64,000 nucleotides of DNA from Veillonella seminalis (GTDB taxonomy: Bacteria > Bacillota > Negativicutes > Veillonellales > Veillonellaceae): contig NZ_RQUZ01000004.1 in assembly GCF_003992065.1 (NCBI RefSeq), positions 62,001-126,000 of the forward strand. Direction: 5' to 3'. Numbering within the stretch: position 1 is the stretch's first letter; each line of letters opens with the position of its first letter. The notes beneath the pieces are model-generated. The model made no database searches, had not been told where the DNA came from, and saw only the letters and a program-made list of their open reading frames with translations. Made by a program: the position numbers and the translations under genes. Shown here in pieces: positions 34,542 through 57,829 of this stretch.

Positions 34542-35369
34542 TTACCGATTCGATTCCTGCTGCTTATTGCGTTCAATAATTTGCATTACAAAAGATGCCG
34601 TTTCTTCAATAGATTTATTGGATACATCAAGAACAGGACAATGAACACGGCGCATAACAGCCTTCGCATAAGCCAATTCTTCTTCAATACGGGCAATATT
34701 GGCATAATTTGCTTCACCGTCAAGGCCCATAGTACGCAAGCGTTCACTTCGGATATTATTCAGTTTATATGGATCAATAACAAGCCCAACCACCTTTTTA
34801 GGCGGAATTTTAAACAATTCTTCCGGCAACGGTACTTCCGGTACCAGCGGCAAATTGGCTGCTTTGATTTTCTTATAGGCTAAAAACATGGATAGTGGCG
34901 TTTTACTTGTTCGAGAAACACCAATAATGACGATATCGGCTTTTTCAAAACCGGACGGGTTTTTACCATCATCATATTTAACCGCAAATTCAATCGCTTC
35001 CACTTTTTTAAAATATTCCTGGTCAAGCTTATGAATCATACCAGCCGTCAAACGAGGTTTCGTGTCGGCAACAGTCCCTACCGCATCAAGGACCGGTCCC
35101 ATAATATCTACCGCCTCAATGCCCATGTTTTGTGCTTCTTTATGTAAATATTGGCGCAATGTAGGCGACACAATCGTATGACAAATAATACTTTGTTCCT
35201 TCGCTGCCTCACTAATTACATCATCAATTTGGCTTTCCTGGCTGATATAAGGAATGCGGATAATATCTATATTCTCCTTGTCGAATTGGCTCGCCGACGC
35301 TCGTGCTACGGCTTCGGCTGTTTCGCCCAAGGAGTCTGAAATTGCAAAAATAACTTTATTGTTCTCCAT
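34542..35369 (-). CDS. ppsR: phosphoenolpyruvate synthase / pyruvate-phosphate dikinase regulatory protein
   Basis: A 275-residue bifunctional kinase and phosphorylase (DUF299) that switches PEP synthase or dikinase off by ADP-dependent phosphorylation and on again with phosphate. The P-loop-like GVSRTSKTPLSMFLA (near 150) is diagnostic. AISDSLGETAEAVARASASQF opens the protein, and DPYKLNNIRSERLRTMGL is conserved. ATG 35369 has GAGGTG. It sits between CcpN and dgt, and its likely target, PEP synthase, is the gene before CcpN. Confidence 0.93.
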   Translation of the reverse strand: MENNKVIFAISDSLGETAEAVARASASQFDKENIDIIRIPYISQESQIDDVISEAAKEQSIICHTIVSPTLRQYLHKEAQNMGIEAVDIMGPVLDAVGTVADTKPRLTAGMIHKLDQEYFKKVEAIEFAVKYDDGKNPSGFEKADIVIIGVSRTSKTPLSMFLAYKKIKAANLPLVPEVPLPEELFKIPPKKVVGLVIDPYKLNNIRSERLRTMGLDGEANYANIARIEEELAYAKAVMRRVHCPVLDVSNKSIEETASFVMQIIERNKQQESNR

Positions 35370-35496
35370 GCCACACCTCAATTAAATGTATTAAAACTAC
35401 GGCAAATGTATTTATTGCCCAAAGATTTTATCGGATTGAGTAATCAAATTTTCTTTTCACTTTTTATTTTAATATGTCTTTTCACAATGTGCAATA

Positions 35497-36126
35497 TTAC
35501 TTCACACCGCAATCTAAAAATAATTTGGTAACTGTCGTTTTAGACACGCGCCCTAAGACCTTATAGCGACGCCGACTGTCTTCTTCAACTCGTTCCACAA
35601 CCGGCAGACAATCCACTTCATAATCAATCATGCGCTGTGCCGCTTCTACGACACTGTCGTCAGCGGTACAGGAAATCATCTTACTCACCGGTGTCATAAT
35701 CATAGAGATTGGCATTGTTTTCGGATCATTTTGACCGATAGCGGCCCGTAATAAATCTTTACGGGAAACGAGGCCCAATAAAAAACCGTCATCACAAATA
35801 AGAACAGTCCCCACGTCTTCAGTAAACATGGTCACTATAGTATCATACAAATTCGTATCTGCCGTAACAGCCACAGCCTGTGCCATGACCTGCCCTACCG
35901 TAAATTGACGAATTTCATTGGCAATCGGGCTGACACCTTGTTGCCCTACGTAATAATAACCAACTTTAGGACGTGCATCGAGAAGCCCCATCATGGTTAA
36001 AACGGTTAAATCCGAACGTAAAGCAGATCTGGTCAAATCCAATTTACCGGCAATGGCTTTCCCCGTAATCGGGCCTTCTTCTTTTACAATATGTACAATT
36101 TGGTCTTGCCGTTTAGTTAATTGCAA
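35497..36126 (-). CDS. ccpN: CcpN-like transcriptional regulator (HTH plus two CBS domains)
   Basis: A 209-residue repressor. The N-terminal winged helix (residues 1-60: LTKRQDQIVHIVKEEGPITG, LTRSALRSDLTVLTMMGLLD) is followed by two CBS domains (about 75-200), which in CcpN bind adenine nucleotides. In Bacillus, CcpN represses gluconeogenic genes in glucose and is paired with the ppsR homologue yqfL, as here. The start is TTG 36126 with AAAGGAGGGG. It is separated from ppsA by a strong terminator, so it is a new transcript. Confidence 0.92.
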   Translation of the reverse strand: MQLTKRQDQIVHIVKEEGPITGKAIAGKLDLTRSALRSDLTVLTMMGLLDARPKVGYYYVGQQGVSPIANEIRQFTVGQVMAQAVAVTADTNLYDTIVTMFTEDVGTVLICDDGFLLGLVSRKDLLRAAIGQNDPKTMPISMIMTPVSKMISCTADDSVVEAAQRMIDYEVDCLPVVERVEEDSRRRYKVLGRVSKTTVTKLFLDCGVK

Positions 36127-36145
36127 AACAGCCCCTCCTTTTTTA

Positions 36146-36177
36146 TAAAAAACAGGAGGCTACACGTAGCCTCCTGT
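36146..36177 (-). terminator. ppsA terminator
   Basis: ACAGGAGGCTAC (36152-36163) and GTAGCCTCCTGT (36166-36177) are perfectly complementary with a two-base centre, then six T on the minus strand. The stem contains AGGAGG, which would be buried in the hairpin. Confidence 0.92.
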
Positions 36178-36195
36178 TCGTATCACACAGTAGTA

Positions 36196-38580: not shown

Positions 38581-38623
38581 TATATGAAACCTCCTGAATA
38601 AAAGAAATACATCAACTAGTTAA

Positions 38624-38652
38624 ATAGTACAACACATTTAAATATATGTCAA
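38624..38652 (-). promoter_or_regulatory. ppsA promoter with overlapping CcpN-like site
   Basis: On the minus strand TTGACA (38652-38647), 17 bp, TACTAT (38629-38624). TGTGTTGTACT (38636-38626) overlaps the -10 and matches 10 of 11 positions of the Bacillus CcpN operator as I remember it (TRTGHYATAYW). Confidence 0.7.
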
Positions 38653-38721
38653 TCATTTTTTAAGTATCTGATGCACTATATAGAATATTTAATCAGTAGT
38701 ATATCATATAAAAGAAATAGG

Positions 38722-38776
38722 CAAAACAAAAGAGCAACCCTTTGAGAATGCATATTCTATCTAAGAGTTGCCCTTT
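38722..38776 (-). terminator. tyrS terminator
   Basis: AAAGGGCAAC and GTTGCTCTTT on the minus strand pair with one wobble, followed by a broken T run (TTTTGTTTT). Confidence 0.7.
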
Positions 38777-38827
38777 ATTTTGCCTATTTGTAATAGTCGA
38801 TTTACTTTTCTTCATTCACAAGTAATT

Positions 38828-38865
38828 AGTGCAACACATTTATATAATACATACAGTGTAACACA
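38828..38865 (-). promoter_or_regulatory. two further TGTGTTRYACT sites after tyrS
   Basis: TGTGTTACACT (38865-38855) and TGTGTTGCACT (38838-38828) on the minus strand, 27 bp apart. They resemble the site over the ppsA -10 but lie 176 bp upstream of its -35 and before the tyrS terminator. Confidence 0.45.
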
Positions 38866-38918
38866 TTAAATCCATACTTGATGCTGCTTCTGAGAAATCA
38901 CTATTACTGTTTATGAGC

Positions 38919-40127
38919 TTAGTTAAATTTAATTTTGATAAATTTACGTTTACCTACCTGAAGCACCATATCTTCAGACAATTCGATATTTTCATCGGAA
39001 CATTTTTCACCGTTGATTTTAAAAGCTCCGGCTTTAATGGAACGACGAGCTTCACTGTTGCTGGCGGTAAGACCTGCATCAGTCAATAACTGTGGTACAT
39101 ATACCGGTTCAGTCGGTTTTGCTATAGCATATTCGGGAATATCTGTCGGTAAATCATGTTTCTGGAATACGCGGATAAATTGTTCCTGTGCTTCATTGGC
39201 TGCTTCTTCACCATGGTACAAGCGTACGATGGTGTGAGCCAATTTCATTTTGGTATCGCGCGGATGAGCCGTACCGTTTTCTAAAGCAGCCGCCAATTCT
39301 TCCTGTTCTTCGATGGACATATCCGTAACGAGCATGAAGTAACGCATCATGAGCTCATCCGGAATCGACATAGCTTTACCGTACATTTCGGTAGCCGGTT
39401 CGCTGATACCGATGTAGTTGCCCAAAGATTTACTCATCTTTTGAACACCGTCAAGACCTTCCAAAATTGGCATGGTAATGATGGTTTGTGGTTCTTGACC
39501 GTATTCTTCCTGTAAATGACGACCCATCAACAAGTTGAATGTCTGATCGGTACCGCCGAATTCAATATCAGCGTGCAACGCAACGGAATCATAGCCCTGC
39601 ATCAACGGATACATGAATTCGTGAACGCCGATGGCACGACCTTCGCTATAACGTTTTTGGAAGTCATCGCGTTCCAACATACGGGCTACCGTATATTTGG
39701 CCGCCAGTTTTAACACATCTTCAAAAGATAATTTGCTGAGCCATTCGCTGTTGTACACAACTTTAGTTTTGGATTCATCAAGTACTTTGAAAATCTGTTC
39801 TTTATACGTAGCCGCATTGTGTGCTACCGCCGCTTCATCCAATGGCGGGCGGGTAGCACTTTTACCGGTAGGGTCACCGATGCGAGCTGTAAAATCACCA
39901 ATTAAAATTACGATTTGATGACCTAAATCTTGGAAGGTTTTTAATTTGCGCAATACAACCGTATGGCCTAAATGAATATCAGGTGCTGTCGGGTCAAGGC
40001 CCAATTTAATCGTTAACGGTTTATTTTCAGCAATGGATTTTGCCAACTTCTTCTTAAAATCTTCTTCAGGAAGTAAATTCTCCACGCCGTGTTTAATCAG
40101 ACGCAATTGTTCTTCCAATGTCTTCAT
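38919..40127 (-). CDS. tyrS: tyrosyl-tRNA synthetase
   Basis: A class I synthetase of 402 residues. The HIGH-type motif is in [13 protein letters not shown] (near 50) and KMSKS in [13 protein letters not shown] (near 230). An S4 RNA-binding domain closes the protein ([20 protein letters not shown]). The length and HLGH form fit the TyrRS-Z/YbaK-less bacterial group. ATG 40127 has GGAGGAAG. It is downstream of the PBP1A gene by 46 bases. No T-box leader is seen, so it is probably read from the pbp transcript. Confidence 0.95.
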
Positions 40128-40173
40128 CAATCTTCCTCCTCGAACTGTCTTTATATATTATGTTTATTCTTAA

Positions 40174-57342: not shown

Positions 57343-57829
57343 ACTTTCCAGATAATTGAAATGTATGTATTTTACGATTTGCATCAATTCCTTGTTTTGC
57401 ATTAATAGTAACTCCTTTCAACGTATTTTTGATTTTCTGACTAAAAGCTAATGCAATCTCCGGCTTAGTACACATACCTGTTATAGTAAAACCATCATCT
57501 GTAAAAACAATCGTATCCAAAATAATTTCTGAACCTGCAGAATCTACAATATGTAACAAAATACTTTGTGTTATACTATGTTTCATTTCCTTTTTCAATC
57601 TTATTTTTAAAATTTTATCATAATTTTGAGCGGCTATATGATTAGCCTTACCTGCGTTTTCCAATTGGCCTATCTCATCGCTTAAAATTTTATTATCATG
57701 ATACCAATAGATTGCTATTAACCAAAAAGACATTGTTAAAGCAGAAAAAATAAGACTAATAATAATTATTAGACTTTTATAATGCTTATAATAATACTCA
57801 CATCGAAATGGCAATAACATAAAATTCAT
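57317..57829 (-). CDS. pilN: PilN-like pilus assembly protein
   Basis: A 170-residue protein. The N-terminus MNFMLLPFR recalls the PilN motif (INLLPWR) that binds PilM. One span is at about 19-41, followed by a coiled coil and a ferredoxin-like domain (ILDTIVFTDDGFTITGMCT, then EIALAFSQKIKN). It follows the PilM-like gene by 39 bases. With PilM and PilO it forms the inner-membrane alignment complex, expected only where an outer membrane exists. Confidence 0.82.
   Translation of the reverse strand: MNFMLLPFRCEYYYKHYKSLIIIISLIFSALTMSFWLIAIYWYHDNKILSDEIGQLENAGKANHIAAQNYDKILKIRLKKEMKHSITQSILLHIVDSAGSEIILDTIVFTDDGFTITGMCTKPEIALAFSQKIKNTLKGVTINAKQGIDANRKIHTFQLSGKYEKNKSQS

Follow-up and report, generated by a model that had tools for sequence, protein, structure and literature searches.

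The intergenic region between tyrS and ppsA of Veillonella seminalis contains repeated sequences that are, in all likelihood, operators of the CcpN-family repressor encoded next to ppsA. The region was examined within a stretch of 64,000 nt of this genome (the window). An earlier note had predicted that ppsA is a member of a CcpN regulon, and this prediction gains support from the assignment of the neighboring protein to the CcpN family, from a motif conserved at ppsA in Veillonellaceae, from the enrichment of the CcpN consensus before ccpN itself in other bacteria, and from the presence of the motif, in Veillonella proper, before a gene for a protein similar to phosphoenolpyruvate (PEP) carboxykinase (PEPCK).

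Gene ppsA codes for the enzyme that turns pyruvate back into PEP, and its product retains the Thr-Cys-His motif, whose Thr, residue 413, we take to be the target residue of PpsR. The gene is preceded by tyrS, at a distance of 338 bp (38581-38918), and is followed by ccpN and ppsR (Table 1); the ppsR product scored 158.4 bits with the narrower PpsR model NF049928, below its cut-off of 350. Each of the intergenic regions flanking ppsA contains a terminator-like hairpin that was revealed by folding alone, because a consensus terminator scanner flagged neither of them, and in 27 of 28 Veillonellaceae the ppsA-ccpN region reaches a folding energy of -14 or lower before a run of T. The hairpin between ppsA and ccpN indicates that ccpN and ppsR are probably co-transcribed with ppsA only in part, if at all. 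Hence, the repressor, the enzyme and PpsR do adjoin, as expected from the compact control unit originally proposed, but they do not constitute a simple single operon, since the terminator hairpin splits ppsA from ccpN-ppsR. Four Rfam matches in the tyrS-ppsA region were below their gathering scores and were taken as chance matches to the hairpin.

Table 1. Genes, predicted structures and candidate sites around ppsA, in coordinates of the window.
Feature	Position	Strand	Evidence
ppsR, PEP synthase regulatory kinase/pyrophosphorylase	34542-35378	-	Pfam PF03618, 348.4 bits; NCBIfam NF003742, 342 bits (cut-off 225)
ccpN, HTH_11 and two CBS domains, TTG start	35497-36126	-	Pfam; NCBIfam CcpN model; PDB match
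Terminator-like hairpin and T-run between ppsA and ccpN	36145-36179	-	Fold -22.8 kcal/mol, z -3.25
ppsA, phosphoenolpyruvate synthase, 794 aa	36196-38580	-	NCBIfam NF005057, 1066.7 bits, and TIGR01418, 988.8 bits, both above cut-off
Predicted ppsA promoter, TTGACA-N17-TACTAT, perfect -35, 17-bp spacer	38624-38652	-	Promoter scan
Proximal CcpN-type candidate operator TGTGTTGTACT, overlapping the ppsA -10	38626-38636	-	Exact TGTGTTRYACT
Weak inverted site TCTGATGCACT, two mismatches	38667-38677	+	Block conserved in the two nearest relatives
Weaker site TATGATATACT	38698-38708	-	Matches the Bacillus CcpN consensus TRTGHYATAYW without mismatch
Terminator-like hairpin between tyrS and the ppsA promoter	38715-38789	-	Fold of 38715-38800, -36.2 kcal/mol, z -9.5
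Distal operator-like site TGTGTTGCACT, tyrS 3′ region	38828-38838	-	Exact TGTGTTRYACT; conserved block; shuffle test
Second distal operator-like site TGTGTTACACT, 27 bp from the other distal site	38855-38865	-	Exact TGTGTTRYACT; shuffle test
tyrS, tyrosyl-tRNA synthetase, upstream neighbor of ppsA	38919-40130	-	TIGR00234, 421.9 bits (cut-off 113.8)

The product of ccpN shows the architecture of CcpN, with an N-terminal HTH_11 domain (38.1 bits, cut-off 25) followed by two CBS domains (56.1 bits in two stretches). It aligned over its full length with the NCBIfam equivalog model CcpN (Bacilli), with a score of 257.1 bits that is 2.9 bits short of the cut-off of 260; as the model is named for Bacilli, we did not take this cut-off as defining the whole family. 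Additionally, its best match in the PDB was the structure 3fv6 of YqzB from B. subtilis (E 1.2e-27, residues 60-203; runner-up 2.9e-7), and YqzB is CcpN (PMC7028823). The assignment of the neighbor of ppsA to the CcpN family, made previously from the sequence, is thereby upheld. The nearest named relatives listed, in a listing that may leave out records of the genome of the window itself, were Veillonella ratti and Veillonella sp. KGMB01456, each with a CcpN 97 % identical.

The order ppsA, ccpN, ppsR was found in all 59 Veillonellales loci (that of the window and 58 others; G056, with a partial ppsA at a contig end and no CcpN match, was left out), with ccpN situated more than 1.3 kb away from ppsA in loci L066 and L077. 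The pairing of ccpN with ppsR, as anticipated in the earlier note, was seen in these 59 loci and in 39 of 40 further loci from Negativicutes; ppsA heads the cluster in 12 of these 40, most of the others being ccpN-ppsR without ppsA. In Clostridia most loci showed the order ccpN-ppsR-ppdK, and the Niallia and Paenibacillus loci contain ccpN-ppsR without an adjoining dikinase. CcpN was present in 111 of 150 genomes of the class Negativicutes; a search of 20 of the 39 genomes lacking it retrieved neither ppsA nor ppsR in any of the 20; an empty search is weak evidence by itself, though the same ppsA query matched 60 of 60 relatives. As no ppsA was found there, these genomes inform on co-occurrence only and do not serve as a control for the motif. 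Genome G148, from Negativicutes, has two CcpN copies (L235 and L236), one by ppsA without ppsR and the other by ppsR without ppsA. Absicoccus porci (L200), a member of the Erysipelotrichia, contains a ppsA-ccpN-ppsR cluster of the Negativicutes type, with a PpsA 67 % identical, and may have acquired it by horizontal transfer.

The tyrS-ppsA region contains three exact copies of TGTGTTRYACT, at the positions given in the earlier note, all of them on the minus strand and co-directional with ppsA; as also described there, the copy at 38626 covers the -10 of the predicted ppsA promoter. The operator consensus used here for Bacillus CcpN is TRTGHYATAYW, as given in the earlier note, and it did not occur in the literature searched. 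The three copies depart from this consensus at position 7, position 8 or both, and the two nearest relatives have TGTGATACACT and TGTGACACACT at the position equivalent to that of the site at 38698. A search of the genome identified eight exact matches to TGTGTTRYACT in 2,251,066 bases, versus four for the pattern read backwards. The window holds four, the fourth being located at 57567-57577 in an ORF of a pilus-type cluster. Besides this pilus-type ORF, the five genomic copies outside the tyrS-ppsA region are situated between two DNA-methylase/phage-type ORFs, ca. 40 bp past upp, within a transporter ORF and downstream of mglC, with gene names assigned by eye from the translations. From the frequency of these five copies, 7.5e-4 matches would be expected in the tyrS-ppsA region (Poisson P for at least three, ca. 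7e-11). None of 2000 dinucleotide shuffles of the 338 bp reached three exact matches, and none of 2000 reached both copies in the distal 263 bp. Allowing up to two mismatches, there were five matches in this region versus 0.29 expected, whereas the whole window was not enriched (59 matches versus 48.3 in shuffles), indicating that the signal of the motif is local.

The original description of these sites as lying around ppsA needs narrowing: the copy at 38626, and perhaps the weaker site at 38698, is at the ppsA promoter, and the pair at 38828 and 38855 belongs to the tyrS 3′ region, its two members following the tyrS stop codon by 53 and 80 bp. Because it precedes the strong hairpin, this pair is probably transcribed with tyrS. 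The pair could serve tyrS or a small transcript, or be the decayed remnant of an older ppsA promoter, and play no part in the present control of ppsA; we consider this a real possibility, and one that leaves the main reading of the proximal site untouched. It agrees with the location of the pair next to tyrS and before the hairpin, and with its spacing to the proximal site, which ranges from 142 to 297 bp among members of the genus without a constant helical phase. Against it, six of the seven genus members retain a distal site, single or double, with no more than one mismatch, despite the divergence of the surrounding region, including tandem copies also in L041 and L043 and single copies in L039, L040 and L042, although for L040 the one-mismatch test is weak by itself (P 0.06; exact match, P 0.001). 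The site at 38828, moreover, belongs to a block of 17-18 bp that is identical in the two nearest relatives, with diverged flanks. In G004, also of this genus, the sole match is a site with one mismatch at -226, on a promoter-like TTGACA-N17-TACTAT stretch.

The distal copies are peculiar to the genus of the window, which is devoid of a partner half-site downstream of the -10 site (0 of 7 members). Half-sites of this kind are present 20-40 bp past the -10 site in 28 of 31 promoters from the other Veillonellales families (shuffles 3.1, maximum 8), in 14 of 21 promoters from other Veillonellaceae genera (shuffles 1.7) and in two of four from the remaining group of the class (shuffles 0.3), in a count that leaves out nine of 72 promoters without a recognizable first site and that uses a doubtful first site for G004 (L044). 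We tentatively propose, as a conceivable scenario, that the Veillonella ratti genus rebuilt its predicted CcpN operator, losing the downstream half-site and replacing it with one or two copies 142-297 bp upstream, in the tyrS 3′ region, with repression through DNA looping or through a block to transcription entering from tyrS. If true, this rebuilt operator would couple the control of ppsA to the transcription of a translation gene.

Matches to TGTGTTRYACT with at most one mismatch were found close to ppsA, at up to 170 bp, in 26 of the 28 Veillonellaceae (shuffle mean 0.8, and 3 at most), in a count where part of the proximal match is -10 sequence, conserved anyway, and where, as in the other shuffle tests, relatives are treated as independent, with shared ancestry uncorrected. 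There were none in 30 promoters from other Veillonellales families (L096 omitted), which have a TATAC-type word over the -10 instead, and three in 37 promoters, ppsA- or ccpN-led, from the 40 further Negativicutes loci (shuffles 0.4). Conservation of the motif before ppsA, whose absence was to count against the prediction, is thus seen in the family of the window and does not extend to the rest of the order. A longer, 14-nt word, AATGTGTTRYACTA, had 42 exact matches in the 28 Veillonellaceae genomes and none for the reversed control; by coordinates, 23 were at ppsA, six before the PEPCK-like gene, eight in other coding regions and five elsewhere. A blind EM motif search over 65 promoters settled on the -10 box, and its result was discarded.

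This overlap with promoter sequences raises the alternative that the repeated words are mainly a conserved -10 sequence (TRYACTAT preceded by TGTG) and not operators. The proximal copy does coincide with the -10 region, most ppsA promoters of Veillonellales share a -10 box similar to TATACTAT, with promoters of the type TTGAC-spacer-TATACTAT visible in most of the 59 upstream regions listed, and two other exact matches in the family (L324 and L325) resemble, by eye, the -10 regions of unrelated promoters. Nevertheless, we consider this improbable: the distal copies appear by eye to be without a good -35 at the right distance, the copy is downstream of the -10 in g4 Veillonella and 164-211 bp ahead of the start codon of the PEPCK-like gene, and TGTGTT is conserved although it falls outside the -10.

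The PEPCK-like gene codes for a product of 542 aa that matches PF01293 with 67.5 bits (cut-off 26.5) and is far below the cut-off of the pckA equivalog TIGR00224. It is preceded by a motif with at most one mismatch in 12 of the 13 genomes examined from Veillonella sensu stricto, in none of six from a second genus, and in the only one from a third, where it is inside the preceding gene; overall, this amounts to 13 of 20 upstream regions (shuffles 0.68, maximum 2), one of 21 loci (G026) having been dropped because the start was not found. The motif was also sought in 28 promoters of named loci that fall outside the order (ccpN-led in 27 cases and ppsA-led in one, including two Pelosinus loci and one Absicoccus locus), chosen from 38 after omission of ten that were near-duplicates, on cut contigs, with an N stretch, or not picked. 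Eight of them contained TGTGTTRYACT with at most one mismatch (shuffles 0.3) and 14 the exact Bacillus CcpN consensus (shuffles 0.4), which is therefore overrepresented in front of ccpN in Clostridia, Bacilli and a small number of others. This enrichment, together with the fact that ppsA and PEPCK genes belong to the functional class of the Bacillus CcpN targets, makes it very improbable that a regulator other than CcpN binds these sites, even if the link between the protein and the motif DNA is indirect.

Other genes were considered as targets. The gene gap has no site within 400 bp in this genome and, among 30 gap loci, one match to the Bacillus consensus (L128) and one match with one mismatch (L133) were taken as chance. 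The canonical pckA genes of G004, G036 and G039 (L097-L099) likewise lacked a site within this distance. In the genus of the window, canonical pckA was not found in six of seven members, G004 carrying one, and neither the PEPCK-like gene nor a pyruvate phosphate dikinase (PPDK) over cut-off was found in any of the seven. Since neither an ATP-type PEPCK nor a PPDK above cut-off was found in the genome of the window, ppsA is the one route to PEP identified there among PpsA, ATP-type PEPCK and PPDK. The mgl genes were rejected as a second target, because the matches to AATGTATTRCACTA are in an mglB-like coding region (six of seven genus members) or in an unrelated coding region (G004). An exact AATGTGTTGCACTA is located ca. 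200 bp after the mglC-like gene (L290 2554-2567; G000:C17:25053-25066), just after a terminator-like hairpin; it is conserved in V. ratti and G002 and absent in the four other genus members checked. The adjacent sequence (L290 2768-8840) contains galK, a ROK-type regulator and an mgl-type sugar ABC transporter, named by eye. These genes are unexpected because Veillonella has been reported to be without hexokinase and glycolytic activity (PMC10100942), and the earlier expectation that this organism lives on lactate is incomplete, given the presence of galK and the sugar transporter.

The predicted system resembles that of B. subtilis CcpN (YqzB; targets gapB, pckA and SR1) in its HTH and two-CBS repressor, in operator words of the type TGTG-YY-RYACT at or near promoters, and in its gluconeogenic targets, including PEPCK in Veillonella proper, and it shares with the Bacilli loci retrieved the pairing of ccpN with a PpsR-type gene. 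It differs in that the candidate target is ppsA, beside the repressor gene, in the lack of a site before gap, and in the departures from the Bacillus consensus at position 7 and/or 8. Bacillus CcpN is reported to require ATP and a slightly acidic pH, to bind upstream of and over the sr1 promoter, and to contact the alpha subunit of the polymerase, preventing promoter escape (PMC7430163). The simplest reading would be that CcpN acts in the same way at the proximal site: bound to the copy overlapping the -10, it would prevent initiation or promoter escape of the polymerase at ppsA under high energy and high glycolytic supply, with ATP as a presumed signal by analogy with Bacillus. Growth on pyruvate or lactate would lift repression, allowing PpsA to make PEP, and PpsR might then set PpsA activity by phosphorylation, as suggested by the ADP-dependent inactivation and Pi-dependent activation of PEP synthase by the DUF299 protein reported for E. 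coli (PMC2817694). The distal copies would most likely add cooperative binding, through looping or by blocking read-through from tyrS.

Predicted CcpN control of a PEP-forming dikinase is already known from Lactobacillales, where comparative genomics assigned ppdK, ccpN and fbp to the regulon (PMC3616900). The dikinase here is instead PpsA, a pyruvate, water dikinase encoded upstream of ccpN. Likewise, the clostridial ccpN-ppsR-ppdK clusters also combine the repressor, a dikinase and its regulatory protein, and have the same type of site, but differ in gene order and enzyme, with the site preceding ccpN and not ppsA. What is added here is a predicted member from the Veillonella group, with a putative operator layout specific to its genus, and the openly licensed papers searched contained no description of CcpN in Veillonella or Negativicutes. 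These comparisons suggest that CcpN control stays with the pathway even as its enzyme shifts from PPDK to PpsA and as PEPCK genes are gained and lost. The predicted CcpN-ppsA switch would extend a known type of metabolic switch to a new bacterial group, and provides a definite, testable candidate for the transcriptional control of gluconeogenesis in Veillonella and its relatives, which are lactate-using commensals. In V. dispar, ppsA was reported as upregulated in early stationary phase and downregulated in stationary phase, and the passages of that study dealing with this shift name no regulator for ppsA (PMC10100942).

The start codon of ccpN also varied among loci. It is TTG, GTG or ATG in all 28 Veillonellaceae (36124-36126 in the window). 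In 32 of 40 loci from other Negativicutes, and in 30 of the 37 named loci from outside the order, which include Clostridia and Bacilli, the position where ccpN is expected to begin is occupied by ATA, ATC or ATT. In 18 of 77 loci there was no in-frame ATG, GTG or TTG for ccpN, an upstream canonical start being possible in the rest. An AUA start is reported to be conserved in S. aureus and B. subtilis (PMC13009471), and many of the ATA, ATC or ATT starts of ccpN are preceded, as judged by eye, by a Shine-Dalgarno sequence.
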